From Bosea sp. 29B (lineage in GTDB: Bacteria > Pseudomonadota > Alphaproteobacteria > Rhizobiales > Beijerinckiaceae): 64,000 bases of DNA. The stretch lies in NCBI RefSeq assembly GCF_902506165.1, contig NZ_LR733817.1, forward strand, positions 5,439,403 to 5,503,402, in the 5' to 3' direction. The notes beneath the pieces were generated by a model that did no database searches, was not told the DNA's origin, and saw only the letters and a program-made list of their open reading frames with translations. Positions 3,940 to 27,176 of this stretch are shown here, one piece after another. The translations under genes and the position numbers were made by a program. The first letter of the stretch is position 1, and every line of letters starts with the position of its first letter.

Positions 3940-4329
3940 TCAGAAGATCTCGACCATCGGATCCTCGGCGACGAAATCGACGCCGCTGATCCTTTCTCCA
4001 AACAGCGGCAGCGGATGGAGCATGGCGTAGATGCGCAAGCGTTCCTGGATCCGCACGAGCATGGTCGGGGTGAAGTTCACCGGCGGCAATGGCGATCCGC
4101 CGAGCTTGGCGCCGATATGCGAAGCGACGATGCGGTTGTCGTTCGGAGCCGGCCTGCTTGTCGAAAACCGCCAGCCGAAATGGAATGCCGGAAGCCCCGG
4201 TGCATGAACCCGCAGGGCATGCGGGCCGCCCGGATAGAGCATCCGGTTGAGATCGACGATCTGCCAGCCATCCTCGTCGATCGGGAACCGACCGCTACGA
4301 TCGTAGTCTGGCGCCTGGTTCTGGTTCAT
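3940..4329 (-). CDS. Unknown 129-residue protein, first gene of the PAAR cassette
   Basis: The protein starts MNQNQAPDYDRSGRFPIDED and ends DFVAEDPMVEIF. It has no signal peptide or membrane helix and no family I can name. It is rich in Pro and aromatic residues (LYPGGPHALRVHAPGLPAFH), which suggests a compact beta fold. It is the first gene of a three-gene set with one-base junctions and is divergent from tssK, so a role in loading or assembling the PAAR tip is plausible but unproven. A longer in-frame start at 4467 exists, but its extra N-terminus looks non-coding and would run across the tssK promoter region, so ATG 4327-4329 is preferred. Confidence 0.6.
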   Translation of the reverse strand: MNQNQAPDYDRSGRFPIDEDGWQIVDLNRMLYPGGPHALRVHAPGLPAFHFGWRFSTSRPAPNDNRIVASHIGAKLGGSPLPPVNFTPTMLVRIQERLRIYAMLHPLPLFGERISGVDFVAEDPMVEIF

Positions 4330-7393: not shown

Positions 7394-7425
7394 GACCGGG
7401 TGACGATGCAGGAGACGGGTAGACG

Positions 7426-11088: not shown

Positions 11089-11089
11089 G

Positions 11090-11794: not shown

Positions 11795-12588
11795 ACGAGC
11801 ACCGCACCGGCTCCAGTTTCGAGACGGGCGCGGTCAGCCACGCCGGGCGTGTGCGCAGCCATAACGAAGACAACCTGGTAGTCCGGCCCGAACACGGGCT
11901 CTGGGCCGTCGCCGACGGCATGGGCGGCCATCAGAACGGCGCCATGGCGAGCGCCACCGTGGCGGCCAGCCTGTCGGCCATCGGCGCGGCCGGCTCCGCC
12001 GCCGAGCTGCTCGACCGGCTCGAACGCGGCGTGGTCGAGGCCAATGCGGAGCTGCGCCGCAAAATCCGTGAGCATGACGGCGCCACAATGGGCGCGACGC
12101 TCGCCGTGCTGCTCGCCCATGACCGCCATTTCGCCTGCGTCTGGTGTGGCGACAGCCGGGTCTATCTCGTCCGCAGCGGGCAGATCACCCAAGTCACCCG
12201 CGACCATACCGAAGCCCAGGACATGATCGAGCGCGGCCTGCTCACCATCGAGGAAGCACGGACCTGGCCGCGGCGCCATGTCATCACTCGCGCCATCGGC
12301 GTGCATGAACGGCCCGAGCTCGATATCGACCATGGCGAGCTCGAAGGTGGCGACGTCTTCGTGCTCTGTTCGGACGGGCTCACCGACCATGTCCGCGACG
12401 AGGAGATCCTGCGCGCGACGGTGACGACCGGCGCCCAGGCCGCCTGCAATGCCCTGCTGGCGCTGACGCTGGAGCGCGGCGCCACCGACAATGTCACCGT
12501 GATCGTGGTGCGCTATCATCACGACGGCGGGACCGAGAAGACGCGCTGGGTGCCGAACATGCGCCAGCGCAGGAGCGATGCGCCATGA
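11791..12588 (+). CDS. pppA: PP2C-family Ser/Thr phosphatase of the T6SS switch (PppA-like)
   Basis: The 265-residue soluble protein has all PP2C metal-site motifs: RVRSHNEDN near residue 19-27, ADGMGGH near 43-49, GATLAVLL, CGDSRVYLVR, SDGLTDHV and TDNVTVIVV. In the Pseudomonas H1-T6SS, PppA removes the phosphate that the kinase PpkA places on the FHA protein Fha and so resets firing. The four-base overlaps with tagF and with the kinase gene indicate tightly coupled synthesis. No FHA-domain gene is seen in this window, so its substrate must be encoded elsewhere or be a different protein. Confidence 0.92.
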   Translation: MNEHRTGSSFETGAVSHAGRVRSHNEDNLVVRPEHGLWAVADGMGGHQNGAMASATVAASLSAIGAAGSAAELLDRLERGVVEANAELRRKIREHDGATMGATLAVLLAHDRHFACVWCGDSRVYLVRSGQITQVTRDHTEAQDMIERGLLTIEEARTWPRRHVITRAIGVHERPELDIDHGELEGGDVFVLCSDGLTDHVRDEEILRATVTTGAQAACNALLALTLERGATDNVTVIVVRYHHDGGTEKTRWVPNMRQRRSDAP

Positions 12589-14552
12589 GCGATTCCGACC
12601 GCACCGTCTTCATGCCGCGCACGGGCCTGGCGCCTGGCGTGCGGCTGAACGGCATCTACGAGATCGAGCGCCTGATCGCCACCGGCGGCATGGGCGAGGT
12701 CTATCAAGGCCGCGCCATCCAGACCGGCGATGCCGTCGCGATCAAGATCGTGCGCTCCGACATGGCGCAGGACGCCAACGTCATCGCCCTGTTCCGCAAC
12801 GAGGCGTCGGCGCTGCACAACCTCTACAACGAGGCGATCGTCCGCTATTACGTCTTCACCGTCGACCCGGCGACGCAGGCGACCTATCTCGCCATGGAGT
12901 TCGTCGACGGCAAGTCGCTCTCCGACCTGTTGAAGCAGGGCCCGCTGCCCTTCGAGGAGGTCGACCTGCTGCGCCGGCGCATCGCGTCCGGCCTGCATGC
13001 CGCCCATATGCTGGGGATCACCCATCGCGACGTCTCGCCCGACAACATCATCCTGCCCGGCGGCCAGGTCACGCGTGCCAAGATCATCGATTTCGGCATC
13101 GCCAAGTCGAAGCTGGCCGAGAAGACGGTGATCGGCTCCGGCTTTGCCGGCAAATTCAATTATGTCTCGCCCGAACAGCTCGGCCTCTACGGCGCCGAGG
13201 TCACCGGCAAGTCGGACATCTACAGCCTCGGCCTGGTGCTGGCCGAGGCGCTCGGCGGCCGCCCGCTCGATATGGGCGGCACGCAGATGCAGATCCTGGA
13301 GAAGCGCCGCCGCGTTCCCGATCTCGCCACCATCGACAAGCGCATCCGCCCGCTGCTGGTGCGCATGCTGGCGCCCGATCCGAAGGACCGCCCGGCCGAC
13401 ATGGCCGAGGTCGCCTCCTGGCAGGCGAAAGGCGGTGCGAACTCTGCCGGTGGCGGTGGACGCGCCTTTCCCTGGCCGCGGGTCGCCGGCGTTGCCGCGC
13501 TCGCGCTGCTTGCCGGGGGCGGATTCTTCGCCTGGAAAATGCTGGGCGGTAGCACTCCGGTCCAGCAGGCGATGAACAGCCCGCCGCCCGCCTTGAGCGA
13601 CGAGCGCCCGCCAGCCTCGCCCAGCGCTGGGTCGAGCACCCCGGTGCCGGAACTCACGCCCGCGACTCCGCCTCCACCGGCGAACCCGGCGCCCTCCCCG
13701 CAGCCGGCAAGCCAGAGCGAGCCGCCCGCGCTGCAATCGCCTACGCCTCCCGGGCCAGTTGCGCCGCCGCAGCCATCTGCGTCTTCGCAATCTCCTGCGC
13801 CCGCGACACCGGAATTGAAGCCGGCGCCGACACTGCCGCCGGCCACCTCAACCTCGACGACCGGCCCGAAATCGACGCCGGTCGCTCCGCCGCCAGCCTC
13901 AACGGCTCCGGAGCCCGAGCCGCGCACTGCCGCCGAGCGGACGGCGCGCTATGTCGCCGACTATGACGGTGGCGCCTGCTTCTTCCTGTGGCCGACGGCG
14001 ATCGCCGACAAGCGCACCACGATCGAAGGCTTCGGCAGCACGGCCGAGCCCTTCGTCGGCTTCGATGCCGCTTTCAAGAAGGCGCAGGGCTACGAGGCGC
14101 AGATCAGCCTGCGCACCGTCACCACAGCGCAGTGCCCGATGGTCGACTTCCTGCGCCAGCTCGGCCGCGGCATTGACCGCAGCCCGGTCATGCAGATCGG
14201 CGCCTTCACCATGAGGAGCGGCGACACGCTGTCCGGCACGGTCGAAAGCGACCCGGGCAAGAATCTCGATATCCTGCTGATCGGCGATGACGGGCTGGTC
14301 TACAATCTCGCCAACTACACCCGTCGCGAAGGCGGCAAGGCGAGCTTCAACCTCAAGCTTGAATCGACGGCGGCTTCAGGCGCGCCCGTGCGGCCGCAGA
14401 CCGTGCTCGCGCTGGTGAGCCAGGCGCCGCTGCCGGCACTGTCGGGCCCGAACCCGGCCCCGGCCGGCGACATCTTCCCCGGCCTGCACCAGGACCTCGC
14501 CCGCGCCGGCGGCAAGGTCGGCGTCGGCATCAAGTATTTCCGGATCGAGTGA
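12585..14552 (+). CDS. ppkA: Membrane-anchored Ser/Thr kinase of the T6SS switch (PpkA-like)
   Basis: The 655-residue protein has a complete Hanks-type kinase domain: Gly loop GGMGEVY (34-40), VAIK lysine 54, HRD with catalytic Asp149, DFG (169-171) and SPEQ (195-198). A membrane helix follows (about 300-318), then a Pro/Ser/Thr-rich linker (about 325-450) and a periplasmic domain (455-655) with two cysteines that I cannot assign. This matches PpkA, which senses envelope state and phosphorylates T6SS regulators. HRDVSPDN replaces the usual HRDLKPEN, but the essential D and N are kept. The start overlaps the phosphatase gene by four bases; it is the last gene of the operon. Confidence 0.92.
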   Translation: MSDSDRTVFMPRTGLAPGVRLNGIYEIERLIATGGMGEVYQGRAIQTGDAVAIKIVRSDMAQDANVIALFRNEASALHNLYNEAIVRYYVFTVDPATQATYLAMEFVDGKSLSDLLKQGPLPFEEVDLLRRRIASGLHAAHMLGITHRDVSPDNIILPGGQVTRAKIIDFGIAKSKLAEKTVIGSGFAGKFNYVSPEQLGLYGAEVTGKSDIYSLGLVLAEALGGRPLDMGGTQMQILEKRRRVPDLATIDKRIRPLLVRMLAPDPKDRPADMAEVASWQAKGGANSAGGGGRAFPWPRVAGVAALALLAGGGFFAWKMLGGSTPVQQAMNSPPPALSDERPPASPSAGSSTPVPELTPATPPPPANPAPSPQPASQSEPPALQSPTPPGPVAPPQPSASSQSPAPATPELKPAPTLPPATSTSTTGPKSTPVAPPPASTAPEPEPRTAAERTARYVADYDGGACFFLWPTAIADKRTTIEGFGSTAEPFVGFDAAFKKAQGYEAQISLRTVTTAQCPMVDFLRQLGRGIDRSPVMQIGAFTMRSGDTLSGTVESDPGKNLDILLIGDDGLVYNLANYTRREGGKASFNLKLESTAASGAPVRPQTVLALVSQAPLPALSGPNPAPAGDIFPGLHQDLARAGGKVGVGIKYFRIE

Positions 14553-14611: not shown

Positions 14612-14890
14612 TCAATCCTCGCGGTAGAGCTCGCCCCAGTCGTCCTGCCAGAGACCTTCTGTGTCCTCGACGACGATCGGTGCCTTGATCTCGTTGGCCA
14701 GGCGCACCGCCGAGCGAAAGCCCTCGACCGGTTCGAGCTCGTCGCTGACGAAATCATTGGTGAGATGGCCTGCCGCCAGCTCTGCCGGGCAGGCGATGCG
14801 AGCGAACGTCTTGCCGTCCCGCTGGCCAAGGCTCAGCGTGATGGCGTCGGGTTGCGGCTCATCGACCTGCTCGAACCGGTTCTTCGCCAT
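14612..14890 (-). CDS. Conserved-looking 92-residue cytoplasmic protein of unknown function
   Basis: The protein (MAKNRFEQVDEPQPDAITLS to EGLWQDDWGELYRED) is acidic and hydrophilic, without signal peptide or membrane segment. I do not recognise a family. AGGCGAGGAGACGACG-type sequence before the ATG at 14888-14890 gives a good ribosome site. It is the last gene of the minus-strand set that begins with the caspase gene, 113 bases after the lytic-transglycosylase gene, and converges on the kinase gene. Confidence 0.7.
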   Translation of the reverse strand: MAKNRFEQVDEPQPDAITLSLGQRDGKTFARIACPAELAAGHLTNDFVSDELEPVEGFRSAVRLANEIKAPIVVEDTEGLWQDDWGELYRED

Positions 14891-15003
14891 CGTCGTCTCC
14901 TCGCCTCTAGGATAGGTCGATCATGGGCCATCGCCGCCATCGCGGCAAATTCGCTGCCCGCGATCGCTTTGGCCGGACCTGGCCGGTATTCGCTTCCAGA
15001 ACT

Positions 15004-16596
15004 CTACTTCTGTTGCTGCCGCGCCGGAGCGGCAGCCGGCCCGCCGCGCACCACCTTGTAGCGGTCGAGCCTGACCTTGATCATCTCGTCGAACTTCTTG
15101 TGCACCTCGGAGACCGAGAGCGTCTTGGTCTCGCCACCGGCCTGGGCGTAGAAGATCGGCCGGTTGGCTTCGGCCGGCTTCGGCAGCAGGGCTGCCGCGC
15201 TCGCACCGGGCGTCTCCTCCATCGTCTCGATGAAGGTCTGCGCCGCATCCGGCCCAAGGAAATGGATCAGGTAGATCTCGCCGCCGGTGAGATGGCGCCC
15301 CATCGCCTTTTCCAGCCTGAGCGTATCGCGCTTCAGCATCTCGCCCGCCAGCAGGGCCGAGAGATAGGGCTCGCGCCTGAGGTCGAGGATGCGCTGGCGC
15401 TCATTGGCGTCGGCGATGACGAACTGCCGGCCACTGCGAGAAATCAGCGCCGCCTCGGCGACGAGCCCATGCTTGCGGCCGAATTCGAAGATCACGCCGA
15501 ACCAGGTCTGCTCGATGAATTGGTAGAGCCCGGTCGCCGAGGAGGTCTTCGCCTTCACCTCCGTCGCGAACGAGGATTCCTTGTCGGCGACCGCCATCAG
15601 CAGGGTCGGGTCGGCGCCGACGACGCGCCCTGCCCTGACGATCATCTCGACCAGATGCCGGCGAATCTTGATCGGCCCGAAGGTCAGGATCTGGTTGGGG
15701 TCGCCGGTATAGTTGATCGGCGCCTGTGGCAGCTGGCTGCGCGGCGCCGCGGCCGGAGCACCCAGCTTGCCCGGCAAGGTCGGCGGCACCAGGATGATGT
15801 TCGAGGGCGGCATCACAGGAATCGGCAGCGCCGGCTGGTTCGACATCTCAGTCCCAACCTGCTCCTTGATCGCTGCGAGCGAGGGATCGGCGTTCAGCGC
15901 GAACTGCGTCGCCTGCCTGGCAGCCTCGAGATCGCCCTCGACCGAGGACAGGATCAGCGATGGCCGGGTCGGCGCCTTCAGCGCTGGCGCCTCGACGCTC
16001 TCGATCGGCTCGAAGCCGCCGGTCACCTCGGTGGAACCGGGCTTCAGCGTCGCAACGGCGACACCGCCGGCGATCGCCAGTACAAGCGCGCCGCCGCCGA
16101 TCAGGGAGACGAGCCGCAGCCGCGAACCGCCATCCGCAACCGCGAAGGGCACGCCGGCGGCGACATTTGTGGCGCTGGCGCCGCCGGCCACCGCCTTTTG
16201 CGCCAGCACCAGCCAGTCCGGCGGCTTGCCATCCTTGCTGGCTGTCTCCTGCAATTCGGCGATCATCCGCCGCGCCTGCTGAGCCGGGACATCCGCATCG
16301 CGCTCCAGCGTCGTGGCCGCGCTGCGCGCGCCCTGCTCGGTCAACGCCTTGAGCGCGAAGAACCAGAGCTGCAGCGAGATGCGCCGGCTCTCCAGCGGCG
16401 TGCCCTGGCAGGGCGAGACCAGGAAATTGCAATGCGGGCAGGCATAGGCGCGCAGCTTCACCCGCGGCGCGAAGGCCGCGGTCTTGCCGCAGGCCGAGCA
16501 GGCCAGCGTGGTGCCGCCCCGCCGCGCCCGCATGATGGTTTCAAGGCAGGCATCCTCCTGGAATGCGGCCTGAAACTGCTTGAAGCGCTGCCCCAT
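15004..16596 (-). CDS. Zinc-ribbon / membrane / lytic-transglycosylase fusion protein
   Basis: This 530-residue protein combines parts not usually found together. Residues 30-60 form a four-cysteine ribbon (CSAC at 33-36, CPHC at 53-56), and residues 65-118 form a helical segment; together they resemble the zinc-ribbon head of IS1595/ISXO2-type transposases. A membrane helix follows (about 162-184), then a Pro-rich linker, then a goose-lysozyme-like SLT domain (about 312-470) with the presumed catalytic glutamate 340 in ADKESSF and the SATGLYQFIEQTW motif. The topology would put the ribbon in the cytoplasm and the peptidoglycan-cleaving domain in the periplasm. Lytic enzymes of this kind open the wall for secretion machines. 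Confidence 0.85.
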   Translation of the reverse strand: MGQRFKQFQAAFQEDACLETIMRARRGGTTLACSACGKTAAFAPRVKLRAYACPHCNFLVSPCQGTPLESRRISLQLWFFALKALTEQGARSAATTLERDADVPAQQARRMIAELQETASKDGKPPDWLVLAQKAVAGGASATNVAAGVPFAVADGGSRLRLVSLIGGGALVLAIAGGVAVATLKPGSTEVTGGFEPIESVEAPALKAPTRPSLILSSVEGDLEAARQATQFALNADPSLAAIKEQVGTEMSNQPALPIPVMPPSNIILVPPTLPGKLGAPAAAPRSQLPQAPINYTGDPNQILTFGPIKIRRHLVEMIVRAGRVVGADPTLLMAVADKESSFATEVKAKTSSATGLYQFIEQTWFGVIFEFGRKHGLVAEAALISRSGRQFVIADANERQRILDLRREPYLSALLAGEMLKRDTLRLEKAMGRHLTGGEIYLIHFLGPDAAQTFIETMEETPGASAAALLPKPAEANRPIFYAQAGGETKTLSVSEVHKKFDEMIKVRLDRYKVVRGGPAAAPARQQQK

Positions 16597-16661
16597 CCTT
16601 CGCTACCGCTGCTGCCGTGCCCCGCCATACGCAGCCGGCGCGGCCTCGACAAGCCTTGCTC

Positions 16662-18224
16662 TCAACCTGCCAGCAGAGCCAGCCGCGCGACATCCCTCAA
16701 ATGCATGTCGACCTCCGCCGCCGTCGCCTCCTTCGGCAGGGCCGGGCCGCCGCGCCCCGACTTATGCGCTTCGCTCAGGAAAGCGTTGAGCGCGTCGAGC
16801 AGCATCGCCGGGGTGCGCGTGCCGTCGAGCAGGCTGACGAATTTGCGCACCACCACACCGTCGAGCGCAACGGCCCGATGGCGCAGATCGGTGACTTCGT
16901 GGCTCGCCAGTGCCTGGCGCCGCGCCAGGAGGCTTGCGACCGGCCGCTCGCTGATCCGCGTCGCCAGCCGATGCGGCTCCAGGCCGATCTCGATCAGGCC
17001 GGCCCGGTAGATCGCGGTGAGCGCCTCGTTCAGGCGCTCGATCTCGCGCTCGCGATCGGAACCGCCCCCGGCCTCCTGCAGCGCCAGGGCGACCAGCTCG
17101 TCATAGCGGATATTACCCGGCCACGTCCGCCCGAGCGCCCGCAACGCCGCCTTGGCCGCCGGCAGGTCGACGGCGAGACGAACGCCGTCCGCGAACAGGA
17201 AGCTCGCCGCCCCCGGCCGCTTCTCGTCGACCTTGCCCTCCTCTTCCTGGACATTGGCGGCAAGATGATACGGCGCGAAGCTGAAGCCGGCGAGGCCGCG
17301 ATGCAGCGCGACATCGGCACGGCAAAGCAAGGTCTGGCGGAAGCAGCGGCCGATCAGCAGGTCTAGCGCCTGCTCTTGCCGGAGCGGCTCGGAGATCGGG
17401 ATCGCGTTCAGCACCTGCTGGGCCGGGCCCCGCGCGCCGCCGAAATTGTTCGGGAAGGAGGTCTCGGAGAGGAACTGCAGCCCATGCGGCTCGGCTGCGG
17501 CCAGCACCTCGTGCAGCGCGAAGGCGCGCGCACCGGGGTTGAGATCGTCATGGTAGAGGACATTGTCCGGGATATCCTCGATCTGCTTGGCCCGCTCGCG
17601 CAGCGCGACGCCGTAGAAGGTCTCGGCATCGGTCGCCTCGGCGAAACGCTTGATCGCCGCCCGCGCCACCCTGACCTTCTCGAGGGGATCGTCGATCTCG
17701 CGCGTCTCGAACAGCATGACATCGCGGGCAAGGTCGCGCAGCCGGCAGCCCGGCAGGGCGTTGTAGCTGACATAGGCGATGCCCTGGGGCGCCAGCAGCT
17801 CGCCGAAGAGCGCCAGGATCCGCTCGCGCACCGGCTGCGGCACCCAGGAATAGACGCCATGGACGATGATGTAGTCGAACTGGCCGAGCCCCGTGGTCAC
17901 CGCCATGATGTCGCGCTGCTCGAAGCTGACATTGCTCAGCCCCAGCTCGGCCGCTTCCGCCTTGGCGCGCGCGATCGCCCGGCCGCTCAGATCAATGCCG
18001 ACGAGCTGCGCTCCCGGGCATTGCAGCGCCATCGGGATCAGGTTGCCGCCACTGCCGCAGCCGAGTTCCAGCACCCGCATCGTCGCGGTCGGCGCCGGGG
18101 TCATGCCGTGGATATGCGCGATCGTCGCCAGATGCGCCGGATGGGTCTGCGAGAAGGCGTGCCCGGGATAGGCGACTGCGTCGTAAGGGTTCGTCGCCAA
18201 GTCTCTCGTGGCCATGTCGTTCAT
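16662..18224 (-). CDS. SAM-dependent methyltransferase with regulatory domain (protein lysine methyltransferase type)
   Basis: The 520-residue protein has a class I methyltransferase domain with motif I VLELGCGSGGN (51-61) and the acidic ribose-binding Asp78 (GIDLS). A methyltransferase regulatory region follows (about 215-300, PF10119 type), then a C-terminal helical winged-helix-like part. This three-part layout is that of the Rickettsia PKMT enzymes, which methylate lysines of outer-membrane proteins; that is family knowledge, and the substrate here is unknown. I start at ATG 18222-18224 (MNDMATRDLA); the longer frame upstream is non-coding in appearance. It lies between the OmpA-like and lytic-transglycosylase genes with gaps of 50 and 65 bases, so it is probably in one operon with them. 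Confidence 0.85.
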   Translation of the reverse strand: MNDMATRDLATNPYDAVAYPGHAFSQTHPAHLATIAHIHGMTPAPTATMRVLELGCGSGGNLIPMALQCPGAQLVGIDLSGRAIARAKAEAAELGLSNVSFEQRDIMAVTTGLGQFDYIIVHGVYSWVPQPVRERILALFGELLAPQGIAYVSYNALPGCRLRDLARDVMLFETREIDDPLEKVRVARAAIKRFAEATDAETFYGVALRERAKQIEDIPDNVLYHDDLNPGARAFALHEVLAAAEPHGLQFLSETSFPNNFGGARGPAQQVLNAIPISEPLRQEQALDLLIGRCFRQTLLCRADVALHRGLAGFSFAPYHLAANVQEEEGKVDEKRPGAASFLFADGVRLAVDLPAAKAALRALGRTWPGNIRYDELVALALQEAGGGSDREREIERLNEALTAIYRAGLIEIGLEPHRLATRISERPVASLLARRQALASHEVTDLRHRAVALDGVVVRKFVSLLDGTRTPAMLLDALNAFLSEAHKSGRGGPALPKEATAAEVDMHLRDVARLALLAG

Positions 18225-18274
18225 CGAGGAATTCCGTCTATCCCATTCGTATCGTTGCAGGTTTTTAGGCGCGC

Positions 18275-19465
18275 TCAGCAGCCGATCACCTTGAACTCGA
18301 CCCGGCGGTCGAGCGCGTCGCTGGCATCGTCCTTGCCGGTGCCGACCAGGTTCTCGTTGTAGCCGCGCCCGCTCGCGATCATCCGGCCACGGCTGTCGGG
18401 CGCCCCGGCCTGGAGCAGGTCCATCACATATTGCGCCCGCAGCACCGAGAGCCGCTCGTTGACCTGCGGCAGACCGGTGCGTGAGGTGTGGCCGACGATC
18501 TCGATGCAGGCGCCCTTCTGCTGGGCGCGGGTCGCGATCTGGCTCAGCCACATCGGATAGGGCTCGGTGATCTGCGGATTGGCGATGAACTGCGTCGAGC
18601 CCGGCTGGAACAGCAGCTTGACCATCAGCTGGTTGTCGGAAAGGCCGCTGTCGACGAGGTCGCCGAAGGCTTCGACCGCATCGTCCTTGCGTCCGAGCTT
18701 GCTGCTGGCGAGATAGGCGCCGATGCGGACACGGTGCTGGTCGCCGCCCGGCAGCACCCGCGCCGTCCGGTAGAAGGCGAGCGCCTCGCGATAATGCCGC
18801 GCCTCGTATTCGAGGATGCCGTCATTGATCAGCGCCGCGACATTGAGGCGTTCGGCATAGAGCGGATCGATCGCGTCGCCGAGCTTCGTGCCCTGGCAGG
18901 TCTTGATGTAAACGTCGGTTGCCGGATCCTTCGACCACATCGGCGAGTCCCGGTAATAGGTCGTCGGTGTGGCGTCGATGCCATCCGGCTTCGCCCGGGC
19001 AACGCCCTTCGACACCACCCGTTTCGACTTCATGTCCAGCAGCGTCAGGCAGATCCGATAGGCGTCGCGCGCGCCCTTCGCGTCCCCGGCATTGTTGACC
19101 GCAGTGAAGGTCCCGACCAGTACCGCTGGATTGCGCGCCAGCGCCTCGGCCGAGAACGGCTGCACCTGGAAGCGCGGATAGGATTTGCCGACCAGCTCGA
19201 TCAGGCTCTGCTGCATCGAGCGTGTCGAGGTCGATTGCGCCCCGGAGATGCCGTCGATCAACGGGTCGATCACCAGCGTGATGCGTTCTCCCTCGATCTG
19301 CGCCTTGGAGAACAGGTCGTTGGCGGCCCGCTCCAGCGCCTGTGGAAACGGGATCGGCGTCGGGGCTGCAGCCGGGGCCGGGCTCGGGGCCGGCTGCGTC
19401 TGAGCCAGGGCTGGCGAAGCCAGCAGCCCCAGCAAGACCATGCAGGCGAGCGGAGAACGACGCAT
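18275..19465 (-). CDS. Exported OmpA-like protein
   Basis: The 396-residue protein starts with a signal peptide (MRRSPLACMVLLGLLASPALAQ) and a short Pro/Ala spacer. A middle region of about 250 residues (including a TPR-like stretch, EARHYREALAFYRTARVLPG) leads to a C-terminal OmpA-type peptidoglycan-binding domain (GSTQFIANPQ, IEIVGHTSRTG, LSVLRAQYVMDLL, ending DRRVEFKVIGC). It probably sits in the periplasm bound to the cell wall. GGGGG five bases before ATG 19463-19465 favours this start; 19486 is an alternative. It lies 74 bases after the caspase gene on the same strand. Confidence 0.85.
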   Translation of the reverse strand: MRRSPLACMVLLGLLASPALAQTQPAPSPAPAAAPTPIPFPQALERAANDLFSKAQIEGERITLVIDPLIDGISGAQSTSTRSMQQSLIELVGKSYPRFQVQPFSAEALARNPAVLVGTFTAVNNAGDAKGARDAYRICLTLLDMKSKRVVSKGVARAKPDGIDATPTTYYRDSPMWSKDPATDVYIKTCQGTKLGDAIDPLYAERLNVAALINDGILEYEARHYREALAFYRTARVLPGGDQHRVRIGAYLASSKLGRKDDAVEAFGDLVDSGLSDNQLMVKLLFQPGSTQFIANPQITEPYPMWLSQIATRAQQKGACIEIVGHTSRTGLPQVNERLSVLRAQYVMDLLQAGAPDSRGRMIASGRGYNENLVGTGKDDASDALDRRVEFKVIGC

Positions 19466-19539
19466 CGAAGCCCCCAATTGCATCATGTCCGAGGCGATGT
19501 CTGGCCTTCGCCGGCGGTGAAGGCCGCTTCGCAACTGTG

Positions 19540-21060
19540 TCAGCGGCAGTTCTTCGGGACGCTGCCGCCATCGCCGAGCTGGGCCCGCATCAGCGCATCG
19601 GTGCAGTCCACCGTCCCGCCAACGCCCGGCCGACGCTTGTTGCTGCGAGGCTCCGGGGCGGCCTCGACGCCGCCGGTCAGGATGCCGGTCGACTTGCGAT
19701 CGAGCACGACGCGCGGCTGCTGGACCTCACGCGGCTCCTGCCGCTGTGGACGCGTGGTGGGAACCGCCGGCAGCAGCGGCTTCTGCGGGGGCGGCAATTC
19801 GGTCACGCCGCCGGAATTCATCCGCGTCGCCACCGCCTTCTCGCGCTCCTCGCGCTCCTGCGAGAGCTTGGCCTTCTCGGCTTCGAGCGCGGCGAGCTCC
19901 TGCTCCTTCTTGGCCAGTTCCTTGGCGAGGCGCTCGCGCTCATTCGCATCGGTCGGCTTCGCCGACGTCACCTCGCCCGGCTTCGGCACGGCGCGCTCGG
20001 TGTCGGCGGTCTTGCCGGCATCGCGGCCAGCAAGATCGGTCGCCGCCTTGACGCGGTCCTTCTCGGCCTGCTGCACGCGGTCCAGCAAGGCCTTCTCCTT
20101 CGCGGCGAATTCCTGCTCGAGCTTCTCGCGCTCTCCCGTCGCAAGGCCACGGCGCTCGATCAGATCGAGCCTCGTCTTGGCGTCGACGGCGAAGAAGCTG
20201 GTCGGGAAGCGCTGGATGAAGGCCTTGATCTCGGCAACGTTGTCGCTGCTGCGCAGGCGCTTCCAGATGTCGGCGTCGGTCTCCTCGCGATTGAGGTAGA
20301 AATCGCCGAGCAGCGAGAGCGAGAGTTCCGGCGTCTGCTTGCCACCGGTGGAATCGTAGACCGCCTTCTGGACGCGGCGGAACATAGTGGCGATCTCGAG
20401 GCCGGGCTGCTGGATCTCCTGCACCAGCGCCGCCGTGAACGGGCTGTTGCGGCCGGCACCGTCGGCGGCGACGTCGTTGGCCTGCGTCGCATAGGCGGTC
20501 ACCATGCCCTGCGCCTTCACGATCGGTGCGAGGCCGGAGCCGACCGACATGCTGCGCGTCGTCGACTTCTTCGAGAGCTGGGCGAGGAAAGGATTGTTGC
20601 GGCAAGCGTCGAGCACCATGATCTTGACGCCCTTGGCGAAGCCCAGCGCCGTGGTGACTTCGCTCAGCTTGACAGTCTCGTACTGGACCGAGACCTCGTC
20701 ATCGATCTTGGCTTCGACCGGGACCAGGAAGTTCTCGCCGTTGAACTGGAAGCCGTGGCCGGCATAGTAGAACATCACCGCGTCGGCATCCTGCGCGAGG
20801 CGGGCGAAGCGCGAGACAGCTGCGTCCATGCCCCGCTTGTCGAGATCGATGCCATCGACCACCTCGAAACCGACCTTGCGCAGCGCCTCGGCGGTGTCGC
20901 GCGCATCGTTCGGCGTGTTGGGCAAAGCGGGAGCGTTCTTGTAGGCGGAATTGCCGATCACCAGGGCGACGCGGCGTTCCTGCGTCTGTGCCAGCGCCGG
21001 CACGACGACGAGCTGCGCAAGAAGAGCGATCAGTGCACAAAATCTGACGGCTACGATCAT
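19540..21060 (-). CDS. Exported caspase-family (C14) protease with coiled coil
   Basis: The 506-residue protein has a signal peptide (1-25, ending PALAQ) and a caspase-hemoglobinase fold domain (about 30-250) with the dyad His102 (YYAGHG) and Cys153 (LDACRNNP), the full bacterial metacaspase/orthocaspase signature. A charged coiled coil follows (about 305-420), then a Pro-rich tail with a short Cys-containing end (GTVDCTDAL to PKNCR). It is likely periplasmic and probably cleaves after basic residues, as related enzymes do. It is the first gene of the minus-strand arm and diverges from the DUF4399 genes across a 141-base region with a 20-bp palindrome. Confidence 0.9.
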   Translation of the reverse strand: MIVAVRFCALIALLAQLVVVPALAQTQERRVALVIGNSAYKNAPALPNTPNDARDTAEALRKVGFEVVDGIDLDKRGMDAAVSRFARLAQDADAVMFYYAGHGFQFNGENFLVPVEAKIDDEVSVQYETVKLSEVTTALGFAKGVKIMVLDACRNNPFLAQLSKKSTTRSMSVGSGLAPIVKAQGMVTAYATQANDVAADGAGRNSPFTAALVQEIQQPGLEIATMFRRVQKAVYDSTGGKQTPELSLSLLGDFYLNREETDADIWKRLRSSDNVAEIKAFIQRFPTSFFAVDAKTRLDLIERRGLATGEREKLEQEFAAKEKALLDRVQQAEKDRVKAATDLAGRDAGKTADTERAVPKPGEVTSAKPTDANERERLAKELAKKEQELAALEAEKAKLSQEREEREKAVATRMNSGGVTELPPPQKPLLPAVPTTRPQRQEPREVQQPRVVLDRKSTGILTGGVEAAPEPRSNKRRPGVGGTVDCTDALMRAQLGDGGSVPKNCR

Positions 21061-21114
21061 GGCACCATTCCCTGCGTCACCCTAAAGAAAGTGACCGTGA
21101 AAATCCAGATTTAT

Positions 21115-21134
21115 CCGCCTGTCATGACAGGCGG
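21115..21134. promoter_or_regulatory. Perfect 20-bp palindrome in the divergent caspase/DUF4399 promoter region
   Basis: CCGCCTGTCATGACAGGCGG reads the same on both strands. It lies 54 bases upstream of the caspase ATG on one side and 67 bases upstream of the DUF4399 ATG on the other. A dimeric repressor or activator bound here could control both arms together. It could also fold as a hairpin in either transcript leader. No regulator gene is adjacent. Confidence 0.6.
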
Positions 21135-21201
21135 TTTGCTTGCTCCCCACCCAACCCGCTGCTAACTTTACGGCGGTCACGCGCCGCGAGGAAGAGCGCC
21201 G

Positions 21202-22452
21202 ATGCGGGGACTTCGACTTAAGCTCATTGTCGGGGTTACGGCCGTTTTCGCCGCGACCATCTCCGTGGGCGTCACACAGGAGCGCGCCCGGGCGCGCAGC
21301 CCCGCCCCCGCCAGCGCGAAGCTCTCCTTCATCGACCTGCAGAACAATGCCCGCATTCCCGGCAAAGCGACGATCCGCTTCGCCATATCAGGCATGGAGA
21401 TCGCGCCCGCCGGCACGGCACGCCGCAATACCGGCCACCATCATCTGCTGATCGACACCGAATTGCCGCCGCTCGGGCAGCCGATCCCGAGCGATTTCAA
21501 CCATCTGCATTTCGGCGGCGGCCAGAGCGAGGCCGAGATCCTGCTCTCGCCCGGCCGCCACACGCTGCAGCTTCTCTTTGCCGACCACGACCATGTCCCG
21601 CACGATCCGCCGGTGCTGTCGGAGAAAATCACCGTCGAGGTCATGGCCGCACCGGAGGAGAAGCCGCGAACGGCCGCGGCGCCCAACGCCAAGGTCTTCT
21701 TCGTCGGCTTGCAGGACGGCGCCGTGATCCCGCCGCGCTCGCTCGTCCGCTTCGGCCAGGAGAACATCGCACTCGTCCCTGCCGGCACCAGGCAGGACAA
21801 TGCCGGCCATCACCATCTCCTCATCGACACCGACCTGCCGCCGCTCGACCGCGAGATCCCCAGCGATTTCAACCACCTGCATTTCGGCCGCGGCCAGACG
21901 GAAACCGAGCTCACCTTGCCGCCCGGTGAGCACACGCTCCAGCTCCTCTTCGCCGACCATGAGCACGTCCCGCACGATCCGCCGGTGATGTCGCAGAAGA
22001 TCAGGGTGCGGGTGCAACAAGCGTCCGTAGCGGCCCCGGCTGCGCCCCCACCTGCCCGCGCCGCCTCCGGTCGGACCCCGGCGCCCAACGACGCCGCAGT
22101 CTATTTCATCTATCCGCGCGACGGCACACGCATCTTCGCGACCTCGACCATCCGTTTCGGCCTGCGCAACATGGGCGTCGCGCCGGCCGGGATCGTCAGG
22201 CCCAACACCGGCCACCACCATCTCCTGATCGACGTGCCGACGCCGCCGCTCGACGCTGCGATCCCCGCCGATCTCAACCATATCCATCTCGGCAACGGCC
22301 AGACCGAACGCAAGATCACGCTGCCGCCGGGTGAGCACACGCTGCAGCTCATCCTCGGCGACGACCAGCACGTGCCCCACGATCCGCCGATCATGTCCGA
22401 GCGCATCACCGTCTATATCGGCGCTCCCGCCAGGCGGAGGGCGCGCCGATGA
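21202..22452 (+). CDS. Exported protein with three tandem DUF4399 domains
   Basis: The 416-residue protein has an N-terminal signal-like segment (LKLIVGVTAVFAATISVGV) and three copies of a His-rich domain at about residues 40-147, 163-271 and 298-406. Each copy repeats NTGHHHLLID or NAGHHHLLID, then a conserved NH(L/I)H(F/L)G, GQ(S/T)E and PG(E/R)HTLQL series, and HVPHDPP. DUF4399 has no established biochemical role; the clustered histidines suggest metal binding, which is inference. The copies differ enough to be an old duplication rather than a recent one. GAGGAAGAGCGCCG just before the ATG at 21202 is the ribosome site. It is the first gene of the plus-strand arm and overlaps the next by four bases. 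Confidence 0.88.
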   Translation: MRGLRLKLIVGVTAVFAATISVGVTQERARARSPAPASAKLSFIDLQNNARIPGKATIRFAISGMEIAPAGTARRNTGHHHLLIDTELPPLGQPIPSDFNHLHFGGGQSEAEILLSPGRHTLQLLFADHDHVPHDPPVLSEKITVEVMAAPEEKPRTAAAPNAKVFFVGLQDGAVIPPRSLVRFGQENIALVPAGTRQDNAGHHHLLIDTDLPPLDREIPSDFNHLHFGRGQTETELTLPPGEHTLQLLFADHEHVPHDPPVMSQKIRVRVQQASVAAPAAPPPARAASGRTPAPNDAAVYFIYPRDGTRIFATSTIRFGLRNMGVAPAGIVRPNTGHHHLLIDVPTPPLDAAIPADLNHIHLGNGQTERKITLPPGEHTLQLILGDDQHVPHDPPIMSERITVYIGAPARRRARR

Positions 22453-22922
22453 CGGCTGGTACCTGCCTTCTCGCCTCTCGCCATCGCGCCAAGACCGCGA
22501 GACTGCTCCTGCTGCTCGCAGCGCTGGCGCCGATGTCCGCGCCGCTCTGCGCCCAAACCGCGCCCCCGCGTCAGCCGGCGCCGCGCAACGCCATGGTCTA
22601 TTTCCATTATCCGCTCGACGGCCTGCGCGTACCTGAGCGCTTCACTGTGCGGATCGGGCTGAAGGAGATGGGCGTCGCCCCGGCCGGCATCGACAAGCCC
22701 GGCACCGGCCACCACCACCTGCTGATCGACACCGATCCTGGCCCGCCGGACCAGCCGATCCCTTCGGACTACAACAACATCCATCTCGGCAACGGCCAGA
22801 CCGAGGTGGTGGTTACGCTCCCGAAGGGGACGCATACGCTGCAATTGCTGCTCGGCGATCACACGCACACGCCCCATCGGCCGCCGGTTATGTCTCAGAA
22901 GATCACAGTCTACGTCAGATGA
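22449..22922 (+). CDS. Exported single-domain DUF4399 protein
   Basis: The 157-residue protein has a signal peptide (hydrophobic LLLLLAALAPMSAPLCAQ, about 19-36) and one DUF4399 domain (about 46-157) with GTGHHHLLIDTD, NNIHLGNGQTE and HTPHRPPVMSQKI. It is most like the third domain of the preceding protein (GNGQTE is shared), so it probably arose from it by duplication. It begins in the last codons of the upstream gene (ATGA overlap), so the two are co-translated. Confidence 0.88.
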   Translation: MTAGTCLLASRHRAKTARLLLLLAALAPMSAPLCAQTAPPRQPAPRNAMVYFHYPLDGLRVPERFTVRIGLKEMGVAPAGIDKPGTGHHHLLIDTDPGPPDQPIPSDYNNIHLGNGQTEVVVTLPKGTHTLQLLLGDHTHTPHRPPVMSQKITVYVR

Positions 22923-22981
22923 GGGATCGATGCGGCGCGGCCGCATCGCCAAGCGAAAGGCCGCAGCGAAGGATGAACGCC

Positions 22982-24736
22982 ATGTCCTGGTATCGGTGCC
23001 TCGCCGTCGCCGTGCTGGCCCTGCTCGCGCCGTTCGCCCCGGCTCTCGCCCAGGGCGGCAACGGCCAGCCGTCGCGCATCGCCTTGGTCGTCGGCAATGC
23101 CGCCTATCGCGCGGCGCCCTTGGCCAACGCCGCCGTCGATGCCCGCGCCGTCGCCGATGTGCTGCGCCAGGGCGAGTTCGACCTCGTCAGCATCGAGAAT
23201 GCCGATCGTCCCGCGCTGGACAGCGCGATCGCGACCTTCCGCGGCAAGCTCACGCGCGGCGCCCAGATCGTCGTCTTCTATTCTGGGCACGCCGTGCAGT
23301 CGCGCGGCCGCAACTTCCTCGTCCCGGTCGACGCCGCGCCGCGCGGCCCGGCCGAGGTCGCGCGCGACGCCATCGACCTCGACCAGCTTCTCGATGCGCT
23401 GATCGTCAGCCGGCCGGCCAGCGCTGTAGTCGTGCTCGACGCGGCGCGCGACAATCCCTGGCAGGCCGGGCTCGGCGGCGGCAAAGGGCTCGCCCCCATC
23501 GAGCAGATCGAGACGATCGCGATCATGGCACCGGTGGCGCCGGGAAAGACCGTGCCCGAGACGCAAGGTCGCGCCGATCCGGCGATCGACGAATGGCTGA
23601 AGGCGATCCGCACGCCAGGGCTCGACATGACGGCGGCTCTGACCCGCACGCGCGACGCTGTCAGCCGCGCAACACGGCGCTCGCAGCAGCTCTGGTTGTC
23701 CTCGATGCCTCCGGCCGGGCTCGTCGTCACACCGACCGGCCGGCCGGTCGCGACCGCCCTCAACACCACCCGCGCCATTACCACCGCGCCGCCGCCTCCC
23801 GGACCACAATCCGACCAGCTCGGCCCCTACGAGCTCTCCTTCTGGGAGACCATCAAGGACAGCCGGAATCCGGACGAGTACCGCGCCTATCTCGAAGCCT
23901 ATCCGAACGGCCGCTTCGCCGGGCTCGCCCGCACCCGCGAGCAGTCTCTCAGGGCCCAGCGGACGGCAGCGACGCAGCCGCCCGCGCCATCGCCGGTGCC
24001 GGCTCCTGCAGCTTCTACGCAAGCCCGGACCATGCGCGATTGCGATGACTGCCCCGAACTCTCCCTGATCCCGGCCGGCAGTTTCGAGATGGGCTCGAAC
24101 GAGATGTTCGAGTTCGAGAAGCCGATACACGCCGTCACCATCGCGCGGCCATTCTATCTCGGCACCGACGAGGTCACCTTCGCGCAGTGGGATACTTGCG
24201 TCGCCGAGGGCGGCTGCAGCCATCGTCCGAGCGACCGCAATCTCGGCCGCGGCAAGCGCCCGGTCACCGACATCCACTGGAACGACGCCAACGCCTATCT
24301 CGTCTGGCTGTCCTACAAGACCGGGCGCAAATACCGGCTGCCGACCGAGGCGGAATGGGAATACGCCGCCCGGGCCGGCACGACGGCCAGCTATCCCTGG
24401 GGCAATTCGGTCGACAAGGAGATGGCCAACTGCCTCGGCTGCAATGCGCAGCCACGCCGCCAGGCGAGCGAGGTCGGCCAATTCCCGCCGAACCGCTTCG
24501 GCCTGCGCGACATGGCCGGGAACGCCGCCGAATGGGTCGCCGACTGCTGGAGTGAGAATTATCGCGCCGCTCCCCGCGACGGCAGCGCCTACGCGCCCGC
24601 CGGCTGCCGCGAACGCGTGCTGCGCGGCGGCTCCTTCAACAACGATCCGCGCTATCTGCGCTCAGCGGCTCGCTTCAAATACGAGAGCGATGTGCGCTTC
24701 TACACCAACGGTTTCCGCGTCCTCCGCGAGCCCTGA
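22982..24736 (+). CDS. Exported pseudo-caspase fused to a SUMF1 (formylglycine-enzyme-like) domain
   Basis: The 584-residue protein has a signal peptide (1-24, ending ALAQ), a caspase fold (about 30-250), a linker and a SUMF1/FGE-sulfatase-type domain (about 358-584: IPAGSFEMGS, FYLGTDEVTFAQW, YRLPTEAEWEYAARAG, GLRDMAGNAAEWVAD, VLRGGSF). The caspase part keeps His103 (FYSGHA), but the position of the catalytic cysteine is alanine (LDAARDNPW, residue 155), so it should be inactive. The SUMF1 part lacks the paired cysteines of true formylglycine enzymes after GGSF, so it is probably a binding or lectin-like fold. I choose ATG 22982 for its AAGGA ribosome site; an ATG at 22919 overlapping the upstream stop would add 21 residues. 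Confidence 0.88.
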   Translation: MSWYRCLAVAVLALLAPFAPALAQGGNGQPSRIALVVGNAAYRAAPLANAAVDARAVADVLRQGEFDLVSIENADRPALDSAIATFRGKLTRGAQIVVFYSGHAVQSRGRNFLVPVDAAPRGPAEVARDAIDLDQLLDALIVSRPASAVVVLDAARDNPWQAGLGGGKGLAPIEQIETIAIMAPVAPGKTVPETQGRADPAIDEWLKAIRTPGLDMTAALTRTRDAVSRATRRSQQLWLSSMPPAGLVVTPTGRPVATALNTTRAITTAPPPPGPQSDQLGPYELSFWETIKDSRNPDEYRAYLEAYPNGRFAGLARTREQSLRAQRTAATQPPAPSPVPAPAASTQARTMRDCDDCPELSLIPAGSFEMGSNEMFEFEKPIHAVTIARPFYLGTDEVTFAQWDTCVAEGGCSHRPSDRNLGRGKRPVTDIHWNDANAYLVWLSYKTGRKYRLPTEAEWEYAARAGTTASYPWGNSVDKEMANCLGCNAQPRRQASEVGQFPPNRFGLRDMAGNAAEWVADCWSENYRAAPRDGSAYAPAGCRERVLRGGSFNNDPRYLRSAARFKYESDVRFYTNGFRVLREP

Positions 24737-24766
24737 CCCCGCGCGGCGCAGCGGGCCGAGCGTTGA

Positions 24767-24821
24767 GCCAGGTGGCAATTTGCACACAGATGCGGAACGA
24801 AGGCCGCCAGGCGGCAATTTG
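24767..24821. promoter_or_regulatory. Pair of 16-bp direct repeats upstream of the caspase-barrel gene
   Basis: GCCAGGTGGCAATTTG (24767-24782) recurs as GCCAGGCGGCAATTTG (24806-24821) with one mismatch and starts 39 bases apart, nearly four helical turns. They lie in the 193-base gap before the caspase-barrel gene. The spacing suits two protein dimers on one face of the DNA, so they are candidate operators; no promoter hexamers are clear. Confidence 0.45.
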
Positions 24822-24929
24822 TTGTTCTCTTCATGGCCGCGTCGCCGCTAATCTCTGCCTTGCTAAGGGTAAGCGTAAGAGACGAATCAGCAGCGGCCAA
24901 GCTTCGGGCCAGGCCGCCGAGGAGGCGCC

Positions 24930-27176
24930 ATGCGGACCGGCCTGCGGCTACCCATCTGCATCCTGTTGGCGCTCGCCGCCATCGCAGGCGCCCTCGCTCT
25001 CGCCATATCGCCTGCCGTCGCGCAGCAACGGCGCTTCGCCTTCGTCATGGGCAATGGCGCCTACCAGAACATCGCCAAGCTGCCGAATGCCCTCGGCGAC
25101 GCCAATGCGACGCGCGCCATGCTGCAGGAGGCCGGCTTCGACGTCACCGCCGCGACCGACCTCTCGCTTGCCGGCCTGCGCAGCGCACTCGATGTCTTCG
25201 TCGAGAAGGTGAAGCAGAGCGGCGCCGGCGCGACCACCCTCGTCTACTATGCCGGCCACGCCGTGCAGCTCGACGGCGCCAACTACATCCTGCCGACGGA
25301 TGTCCGCGTCGAAACCTCGGCGAACATCCCGAACCAGTCGCTCTCGCTGACCGAAATCCTGCGCAAGCTCGACGCCGCCGGCGCCAGATCGAAGATCGCG
25401 ATCCTCGACGCCTGCCGCAACAACCCCTTCGCCGGGCGTGAATTGTCGCGCGGGCTGGCGCTGCAGATGGTCGACGGCGCCAACGAAGGCATTCGCAGCG
25501 AAGCGGGCCTCGCCCGCATCGATTCCAGCAGCGGCACCTTCGTCGCCTTCGCGACCTCGCCGGGCTCGACCGCGGCCGACGGCACCGGCCCCAACAGCCC
25601 GTTCACCACCGCCTTCCTGCGCGAGGCGCGCGAGCCGGGGCTGCCGATCGAGCAGGTCTTCCGCCGCATCCGCCTGGCCGTCTACGACGCCACCAGCGGC
25701 ACCCAAATCCCCTGGGACACCTCCTCGCTGATCACCGATGTCGCCTTCTTCCAGCGCCCGGCCAGCGCCGCCCCGGCACAGCCGGCAGGCACTCCCGCAG
25801 TTGCCGGCGCCATTCCGCTCGCGGCTCGCCCGACGGCAGCGGCGCTGCGCGCCATGTCGCTTGCGGATGCCTACCGCACCGCCATCGCCTGGGATCGGCG
25901 CGACATCTACCGCAGCGCCCTCGCCATCAACCCGGACGACCAGAGCGCCTTGAGGCTGCATCGCATCCTGGCGCAGCGGACCGAGGAGACTGCCTGGGCC
26001 GAGACCGTGCTCGCCGGCGACGCCGAATCGCTCAAGCTCTTCGCCCGCCTCTATCCCGGCTCGCAGCATGAGAACGAGGCGCTGCGCCTGGCCGCGAGCG
26101 CCCCGAGCCGCAACCGCGTCCAGGTCGCCCAGACCTGCCCGATCTGCCCGGCTCTGCAGCCACGCGTGCGCCGCGCCGACTATACGCCGCGCTCGCCTTC
26201 GCCCAGCCGGCCCGGCGCGCCGCGACAGCCGCGCGCCGTCCAGCCCGCATCGGACGTTTATGCACCGCCCCTTCCCGTCATTCTCCCGACGCAGCCGCGC
26301 TGGAGCGGCTTCTATGTCGGCGGCTCGCTCGGCGGAGGCCGGCAGGCCAGCAGCACGAGCGTCCAGGGGCCCTATGGCACTCCCATGGTCACCCCGACGA
26401 CCACGAACACGAACACTGCGACCAACACCACGACCAATGTCGCGAACACCACGACCACGACGACGAGCACGTCTACGACCATCGTCGGTTCGGATCCCGT
26501 CACGACGACCGTGACGTCGACGACCAACACGACCTCGACGACCACCAACACGTCGACGAACTCATCGAGCACCGCGGTCGCGGGCACGCCAACCACCGCC
26601 TCCTGGGCGATCGACCCATCCGCTGTGCCGCGCAGCCTGGCGCCGGAGGGGAACAACGCCGTCGGCGGCGCCCAGTTCGGCTTCAACTACCAGATCGGCG
26701 CTGTCGTGATCGGCGCCGAGACCGACCTCTCCGCCACCCGCCTTGGCGGTAGCAAGAGCGTCTCCGCCAACCCCGGCACCCAGTTCACCACCCGTGCCAG
26801 CAACGAGCTCTCGATGCTCGGCACGGTACGGGTGCGCGCCGGCATCGTTCTCGGCAATTTCCTGATCTACGGCTCAGGTGGCTATGCCTATGGCCTCGTC
26901 GAGCAGAAGGGCTCGATCACGCCCGACAACACCCGGGCCACCTCGGCCGTCAGCGGCTCGCGCTCGGGCCTCATCGGCGGCTGGGCGGTGGGTGGCGGCG
27001 TCGAATACGCGATCGCTCCCGGCATGACGATCCGGCTCGACTACACCCATTACGAGCTCGGCCAGAAGCGCCTGCTGCTGCAGGATTATACCGGGCTGGC
27101 GCCCGATCAGTACGCGGCCATGCGGATCCGCACCGCCGGCGACATCGTCAAGGCCGGCTTCAACTTCGGCTTCTGA
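24930..27176 (+). CDS. Caspase-family protease fused to an outer-membrane beta-barrel
   Basis: The 748-residue protein has a signal peptide (1-32), a caspase domain (about 34-275) with an intact His110 (YYAGHA) and Cys162 (LDACRNNP), a helical region (300-390), a Pro/Arg-rich linker with CPIC (403-406), and a C-terminal domain (458-748) that starts WSGFYVGGSLGG and ends in GFNFGF. Those are the first strand and terminal phenylalanine of Omp25/Omp31-type outer-membrane barrels. A Thr/Asn/Ser-rich stretch (about 488-553) sits where the first surface loop would be. If the barrel inserts, the protease domain lies in the periplasm. GAGGAGG upstream of the ATG at 24930 is a strong ribosome site. 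Confidence 0.9.
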   Translation: MRTGLRLPICILLALAAIAGALALAISPAVAQQRRFAFVMGNGAYQNIAKLPNALGDANATRAMLQEAGFDVTAATDLSLAGLRSALDVFVEKVKQSGAGATTLVYYAGHAVQLDGANYILPTDVRVETSANIPNQSLSLTEILRKLDAAGARSKIAILDACRNNPFAGRELSRGLALQMVDGANEGIRSEAGLARIDSSSGTFVAFATSPGSTAADGTGPNSPFTTAFLREAREPGLPIEQVFRRIRLAVYDATSGTQIPWDTSSLITDVAFFQRPASAAPAQPAGTPAVAGAIPLAARPTAAALRAMSLADAYRTAIAWDRRDIYRSALAINPDDQSALRLHRILAQRTEETAWAETVLAGDAESLKLFARLYPGSQHENEALRLAASAPSRNRVQVAQTCPICPALQPRVRRADYTPRSPSPSRPGAPRQPRAVQPASDVYAPPLPVILPTQPRWSGFYVGGSLGGGRQASSTSVQGPYGTPMVTPTTTNTNTATNTTTNVANTTTTTTSTSTTIVGSDPVTTTVTSTTNTTSTTTNTSTNSSSTAVAGTPTTASWAIDPSAVPRSLAPEGNNAVGGAQFGFNYQIGAVVIGAETDLSATRLGGSKSVSANPGTQFTTRASNELSMLGTVRVRAGIVLGNFLIYGSGGYAYGLVEQKGSITPDNTRATSAVSGSRSGLIGGWAVGGGVEYAIAPGMTIRLDYTHYELGQKRLLLQDYTGLAPDQYAAMRIRTAGDIVKAGFNFGF

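Follow-up and report, generated by a model that had tools for sequence, protein, structure and literature searches.

The described systems closest to the gene set considered here are envelope proteins that act with the Ser/Thr kinase PpkA of type VI secretion systems (T6SSs) and operons that contain prokaryotic caspase homologues. We describe a stretch of 64,000 nucleotides from Bosea sp. 29B (contig NZ_LR733817.1, positions 5,439,403 to 5,503,402), hereafter the window, in which a T6SS locus is accompanied by a divergent five-gene unit, termed module E. The unit encodes two caspase-fold proteins (C1 and C2), two DUF4399 proteins (D3 and D1) and an OmpA-like protein. Module E was found only in Bosea genomes that have the same T6SS, which suggests that it senses or tunes this T6SS at the envelope.

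In Pseudomonas aeruginosa, the TagQRST-PpkA system of the H1-T6SS resembles the window in having exported and membrane proteins upstream of PpkA, with PppA, and its TagR is periplasmic (PMC10482370). The window set differs in adding a caspase, a pseudo-caspase, DUF4399 proteins and a barrel-caspase. No TagST-like ATP-binding cassette transporter pair occurs among the 19 neighbouring open reading frames (ORFs) scanned, the rest of the genome being unsearched, and no TagQ-like outer-membrane lipoprotein was recognized at the window locus by eye. A second point of comparison is the TssW-PpkA-Fha axis of Acidovorax citrulli, where the outer-membrane protein TssW, whose gene is a neighbour of ppkA, interacts with both TssM and PpkA and determines where the T6SS is positioned; it differs in that the available text mentions no caspase domain, the comparison being one of descriptions and not of sequences (PMC12607579).

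From the side of the proteases, a survey of prokaryotic caspase homologues (metacaspases and orthocaspases) reported 33 caspase-FGE-sulfatase fusions among 671 sequences, 14 metacaspase operons that include OmpA, 20 that contain at least two metacaspases, and dyad substitutions; the available text differs from the present case in that a divergent five-gene unit, DUF4399 partners and linkage to a T6SS go unmentioned (PMC3501461). Outer-membrane lipoproteins of the LpoB/PelC/CsgG type are a modest match to the fold predicted for the N-terminal part of the OmpA-like protein, which differs from them by an added helical region and OmpA domain and by the lack of any lipobox noticed by eye. Caspase-FGE fusions, OmpA in caspase operons and envelope inputs to PpkA are thus parts already known; their combination in module E was not met in the available text of the open-licence literature searched (PMC3501461, PMC10482370, PMC12607579, PMC3953482).

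A conserved divergent unit

An earlier reading of the window, the original prediction, had proposed a single cluster built on three caspases and comprising caspases, OmpA-like, DUF4399, SUMF1, methyltransferase and lytic transglycosylase proteins. Pfam matches bear out this composition gene by gene, and also the claimed adjacency to T6SS switch genes, with PppA, PpkA, TssM and TagF lying upstream. All of the named proteins are present as long ORFs with the third-position GC (GC3) pattern of coding DNA and with Pfam matches above curated cut-offs. The host genome (6.33 Mb) has six PF00656 matches, three of them inside the window. Among the relatives listed for the window proteins, those with names come mostly from Bosea. 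The features of module E are as follows.

18275..19465, minus strand: OmpA-like protein of module E, with a hydrophobic N-terminus, a predicted LpoB/CsgG-type domain, a helical region and an OmpA peptidoglycan-binding domain (Pfam OmpA match, structural model, Foldseek).
19540..21060, minus strand: C1, an apparently exported caspase-fold protease of module E (PF00656).
21061..21201, no strand assigned: divergent intergenic region common to both arms of module E, with conserved blocks TCCAG and CTTG...CTG.TA.C (alignment of intergenic regions).
21202..22452, plus strand: D3, an apparently exported protein of module E with three DUF4399 domains (Pfam, three stretches).
22449..22922, plus strand: D1, an apparently exported single DUF4399 domain of module E (Pfam).
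22919..24736, plus strand: C2, an apparently exported pseudo-caspase of module E fused to a SUMF1 (FGE-like) domain (Pfam).

The OmpA-like and C1 genes run leftwards, and D3, D1 and C2 rightwards, the D3-D1 and D1-C2 pairs each overlapping by 4 bp; the intergenic region at 21061..21201 may serve as the promoter region of both arms. We fetched 29 loci as 20-kb stretches around C2 orthologues from members of the genus (L017-L045). In 28 of them the five genes keep the arrangement and strands seen in the window, the 29th (L034) running off its contig, and the proteins are ~56-98% identical to those of the window over full-length matches. The larger cluster did not survive this comparison. Twelve of the 29 loci (L025-L033, L035-L037) have no lytic transglycosylase (LT), methyltransferase (MT), PpkA or TssM within the 20-kb stretch, so the separation of families that had been named as refuting the prediction applies to the whole set but not to the five-gene block.

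Co-inheritance with one T6SS

The co-inheritance survey covered 67 Bosea genomes, with D3 as the marker of module E. Genomes were scored as T6SS-positive if their TssM was at least 78% identical to that of the window (45 genomes); with G004, in which a broken contig carries PpkA, LT and module E and TssB lies elsewhere in the genome, this gives 46 positives and 21 negatives. D3 (at least 68% identity) is present in 43 of the 46 positives and in none of the 21 negatives. Of the three roles originally proposed, that of an accessory to the T6SS is the best supported. The OmpA-like gene (at least 66%) likewise occurs in 43 genomes, all among the 46, namely 42 with D3 and G377; in G020, D3 is accompanied by a fragment of it. 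Positives without D3 are G015, G023 and G377, the last having the OmpA-like gene and TssM on one contig whose end cuts off the rest. Among the negatives, D3 relatives amount to four two-domain proteins at 54-65% identity, in pieces, and four single-domain proteins at 50-51%. Four negatives have a TssM at 55% and one a partial match at 56%; TssB gave no match in 15 and a match in six.

In a PBP1A tree of 48 Bosea genomes, 30 tips have both the T6SS and module E, two have the T6SS without E, 16 have neither, and none has E without the T6SS. The T6SS-negative tips G045, G041, G002, G006, G011, G024 and G018, together with the clade of 55% TssM, are scattered among positives, which implies about eight joint losses (counted by eye) if the crown ancestor had both. 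Two of these tips, G041 and G002, negative for both traits, lie with a support of 100 inside a clade where E and the T6SS are unlinked. A two-trait likelihood test favours dependence (likelihood ratio 31.4, p 2.5e-6), the p value being only rough because the tree is of one gene, parameters are at bounds and a single deletion may remove genes that are linked. The tie of module E to one T6SS and its PpkA is established only as shared inheritance.

Two modules side by side

In roughly half of the genomes that bear it, module E is not next to the T6SS (read by eye). The T6SS side of the window comprises the following features.

4530..12588, plus strand: TssK, TssL, TssM, TagF and PppA, that is T6SS membrane complex, baseplate protein and phospho-switch (Pfam).
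12585..14552, plus strand: PpkA-type Ser/Thr kinase with a hydrophobic segment near 300 and a C-terminal domain taken as periplasmic; the proposed receiver (Pfam, hydropathy).
15004..16596, minus strand: LT, with a zinc-ribbon-like N-terminus, one hydrophobic segment near 160-185 and a C-terminal SLT lytic transglycosylase domain; a T-module gene (Pfam).
16662..18224, minus strand: MT, a methyltransferase with MethyTransf_Reg and PKMT-type C-terminal domains; a T-module gene (Pfam).
24930..27176, plus strand: C3, an apparently exported caspase-fold protease fused to an outer-membrane beta-barrel (OMP_b-brl); a gene linked to module T (Pfam).

In the 12 genomes with stand-alone E, LT and MT follow PpkA. 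Eight of these genomes also have C3 at the T6SS locus, adjoining MT in six and separated from it by C1 in G007 and G028; only a fragment of it is present there in G039, and it was not found there in G042, G037 or G029. The window therefore holds two modules side by side, E and a module T made up of the T6SS membrane complex and phospho-switch with LT, MT and, in some genomes, C3. It follows from the position of LT, MT and often C3 behind PpkA in the stand-alone genomes that, in the lineage of the window, E sits between MT and C3.

The DNA match between stand-alone E loci extends over ~6.3 kb and breaks off where the OmpA-like and C2 genes end. When 4.5 kb of left and 3.7 kb of right flank were compared, five of the 12 loci (G042, G022, G026, G037 and G039) had no flank match of at least 250 bp with any other, and the remaining seven share parts of one rearranged context, so that, in addition to its place beside the T6SS, E occupies at least six contexts. 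At L035, the scan of five neighbours gave metabolic genes and a GntR-type regulator. The T6SS loci of G007 and G028 have a window-type C1 and a C3, with no OmpA-like, D3, D1 or C2 gene. C1, OmpA-like and D3 of their stand-alone E group with G042 (support 0.99-1.00), contrary to the PBP1A tree, in which both genomes group with the window. One reading is that most of a native E was lost and a foreign E gained; other histories are possible.

The proteins of module E

All five proteins of module E have a hydrophobic N-terminal stretch, and no lipobox was noticed in them by eye. Export is called here from such stretches in hydropathy profiles and not from a signal-peptide program. On this basis, the claim that nearly all of the proteins are exported or wall-directed stands for C1, D3, D1, C2, C3 and the OmpA-like protein and fails for MT.

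The three caspase-fold domains of the window differ in their catalytic residues. C1 (PF00656, 145.2 bits against a cut-off of 21.4) has an intact His-Cys dyad in 32 of 32 sequences, that of the window included. In C2 the same family scores 75.3 bits (cut-off 21.4) and the FGE-sulfatase fold domain 180.1 bits. In the window C2 the catalytic Cys is replaced by Ala, and all 28 C2 sequences have S, G, A or T there; His is kept in 27 of the 28, and in 24 of 26 in a partly different sequence set. The original assignment of one active caspase, one pseudo-caspase and one caspase-barrel was right in taking C2 as dead, and has to be amended for C3 (125.9 bits, same cut-off), in which both the His and the Cys motif are intact in 14 of 14 sequences including the window's own. 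Because C3 also carries these motifs, the set comprises two potentially active proteases, C1 and C3, and one pseudo-protease, C2.

The nearest solved relative of C2 is PvdO. A SUMF1-type domain is borne by TagR as well, and in FGE an active-site cysteine pair lies near the C-terminus. The SUMF1 part of C2 has, by position, eight invariant cysteines at 375-563 and none in its last 42 residues; the invariant cysteines would fit an oxidizing compartment. DUF4399 is predicted to form an Ig/FN3-like sandwich (fold search with a model of mean pLDDT 81), and in D1 the residues G87-H88-H89-H90, N109 and H112 are invariant in 28 aligned sequences, a pattern that may point to metal binding. The OmpA-like protein was modelled from 19 sequences with a mean pLDDT of 59, high in the N-terminal domain only. 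Foldseek matched that domain to three LpoB chains (E-values 4.3e-4 to 1.1e-3, probability 1.00), with a TM-score to the target of only 0.42-0.63, and also to PelC.

What module E may do

We tentatively regard module E as a periplasmic protease/pseudo-protease module that serves this T6SS, probably as an input to PpkA, a function that we infer from its parts and their inheritance. In such a module, the OmpA-like protein would hold the assembly to peptidoglycan, and the DUF4399 proteins, Ig-like, histidine-rich and probably metal-binding, would form the sensing or scaffold part with the SUMF1 domain of C2. The dead caspase domain of C2 would pair with and control the live protease C1. Envelope disturbance would release C1 to trim a partner in the periplasm, for which the likeliest candidate is the periplasmic domain of PpkA or a protein associated with TssM, and this trimming would set the T6SS on or off. 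C3, anchored in the outer membrane through its barrel, would be another protease at the T6SS locus, and LT would open peptidoglycan for the T6SS membrane complex. The localization, the C1-C2 partnership, any proteolysis and the choice of PpkA as receiver are steps that we infer. An envelope-damage sensor with proteolytic output, another of the roles originally proposed, is possible. Its most specific form, in which envelope attack frees C1 from dead C2 so that it can cut PpkA in its periplasmic part, or the ligand of PpkA, and trigger firing, we consider unlikely.

The C-terminal domain of PpkA is recognizable at 62-96% identity in the scanned T6SS loci of the window type that cover it. In G001 and G008, two of the four genomes with 55% TssM, the kinase domain is 64-65% and the C-terminal part of TssM 48-49% identical, and the PpkA C-terminus gave no match to the window-type domain, being in G001 a long, charged, coiled-coil-like region (by eye). 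Module E and LT were not found in any of the four. This change of PpkA alongside the absence of E and LT represents one evolutionary event and is only suggestive.

Several observations weigh against a role tied to this T6SS. G015 and G023 have the window-type T6SS, with the same PpkA C-terminal domain, and module E was not found in them. The PBP1A tree represents one gene and has some weak nodes (support 36-65), and one deletion spanning linked genes could account for many of the co-losses, with unlinked cases coming from two lineages. C1 of G034 (L042 3128-4607) and C2 of G009 (L044 14510-16287) each appear as two pieces in different frames, which may reflect a real split, decay or sequence error. 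Parts of the module also occur elsewhere. DUF4399 and SUMF1 genes stand side by side in G001, G008, G019 and G032, which have the 55% TssM, distant by coordinates; the SUMF1 protein of the pair in G001, the only one checked, has no caspase domain by Pfam. DUF4399 and SUMF1 matches also lie at neighbouring coordinates in G006 and G024, both without TssM and TssB. In G018, which lacks TssM and TssB, and also in G010 and G014, a SUMF1 protein comes after a paralogue of the OmpA-like protein (42-44%); on the contigs of G004 and G377 no more than the N-terminal part of this neighbour is present. In G269, from another genus of the family, an OmpA-like relative again precedes a SUMF1 protein. Such pairs without this T6SS imply that the partnership at the core of the module is not restricted to the T6SS. 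The OmpA-SUMF1 and DUF4399-SUMF1 pairings seem to be more widespread, and the caspase pair and the link to the T6SS may have been added to them.

These pairs lend themselves to a different explanation, namely that E, as a protease anchored to peptidoglycan with a pseudo-protease as its regulator, serves envelope stress responses or quality control in general, and that its co-occurrence with the T6SS reflects a larger-genome or competitive lifestyle, or joint loss during genome reduction, rather than joint action. That E and the T6SS are not adjacent in roughly half of the genomes with E is in keeping with this, as is the predicted LpoB-like fold, which would point to control of peptidoglycan synthesis, and 12 of the 21 genomes negative for both traits are of 3.2-4.7 Mb. 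However, those negatives also include genomes of 6.6-7.3 Mb (G045, G370 and G385), and E without the T6SS was found in none of the 21. We regard this explanation as possible but doubtful.

Self-protection is a further alternative, in which E would repair or remove damaged envelope proteins when the cell's own periplasm is exposed to firing and effectors of its own or a sister cell's T6SS, with no part in regulating it. The same co-inheritance data, the five hydrophobic N-termini and the peptidoglycan-binding domain would all suit such a role. Immunity genes usually vary with effectors, whereas E is one conserved set at the identities given above, and we judge self-protection improbable. That E is a wandering, partly selfish cassette with incidental T6SS adjacency appears very improbable, for although it accounts for the six or more flank contexts of the twelve stand-alone loci and for the C1, OmpA and D3 trees of G007 and G028, there is no recombinase among the five neighbours at L035, the sole stand-alone locus scanned, and absence from all 21 T6SS-negative genomes is unexpected of a wanderer.

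Signal reception by PpkA-type T6SS kinases is known in only a few species. If module E is an input to PpkA in Bosea, it offers a separable five-gene set for testing, and it would extend the roles of caspase homologues, of which Alphaproteobacteria have many (PMC3501461), beyond cell death. A fixed pairing of active and inactive caspases would be a clean case of regulation by a bacterial pseudo-protease. Were the protease-trigger model to hold, it would be a bacterial analogue of protease/pseudo-protease control at death receptors, wired to a secretion weapon.

The T6SS locus and its other genes

From 2.7 to 14.6 kb the Pfam matches run in the order PAAR, TssK, TssL, TssM, TagF, PP2C phosphatase (PppA) and Ser/Thr kinase (PpkA). 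The locus thus combines a PpkA kinase that has a domain beyond its membrane segment with PppA and TagF. Of the T6SS components searched for, TssK, TssL, TssM and PAAR are in the window, and TssB is elsewhere in the genome, in two copies.

LT matches the SLT family at 22.8 bits (cut-off 21.3), and the Glu of the SLT motif is kept in 31 of 31 sequences. Its N-terminus gives weak, sub-threshold Pfam zinc-ribbon matches, a transposase zinc ribbon among them. LT looks inner-membrane-spanning, because a zinc-ribbon-like N-terminus is followed by a hydrophobic segment and then the SLT domain; its head may possibly be a cytoplasmic DNA- or protein-binding one on a cell-wall enzyme. Among 49 genomes examined, a long LT match is present in all 32 Bosea with the window-type T6SS (31 by TssM, plus G004) and in none of the 17 without. 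MT adjoins LT in T6SS loci and is probably cytoplasmic, since its hydropathy profile has no hydrophobic N-terminus. The MT and OmpA-like queries were run as 16662-18221 and 18275-19471, the likely start codons being at 18224 and 19465.

C3 has a hydrophobic N-terminal stretch by hydropathy and occurs in 28 of the 67 Bosea genomes, all with the window-type T6SS; in 21 of the 28 it is T6SS-adjacent (from coordinates, by eye). Its caspase and barrel domains are joined by a long Thr/Ser/Asn-rich linker. Among the best 120 of 1143 relatives, the first 111, the window's own included, have both Pfam domains, and where a name gives an organism it is Bosea or Hyphomicrobiales. To the right of C3 lie a class V aminotransferase (SufS by position) and then suf-like genes.

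The T6SS of the window looks split, with the nearest chromosomal TssB (genome coordinate C1:5188189) ~260 kb from TssM (window 4530-14552). The corresponding spacing is ~290 kb in G035, ~240 kb in G047, and 11-12 kb in, for example, G036, G013 and G012. In G003 (L064, L020), LT, MT and module E are ~260 kb from TssM on the same contig, near a TssB match, an arrangement that suggests an inversion through the locus. The TssB match in G028 (G028:C1:110981-111441) consists of two overlapping pieces in different frames. The host genome also has a second, distant T6SS (TssM 31%). Finally, a 422-aa protein at 2733-4001 ends in a PAAR motif while its N-terminal part has no Pfam match, and downstream of it, at 1952-2731, is a 259-aa ORF without a Pfam match; the two are candidates for T6SS cargo and partner.

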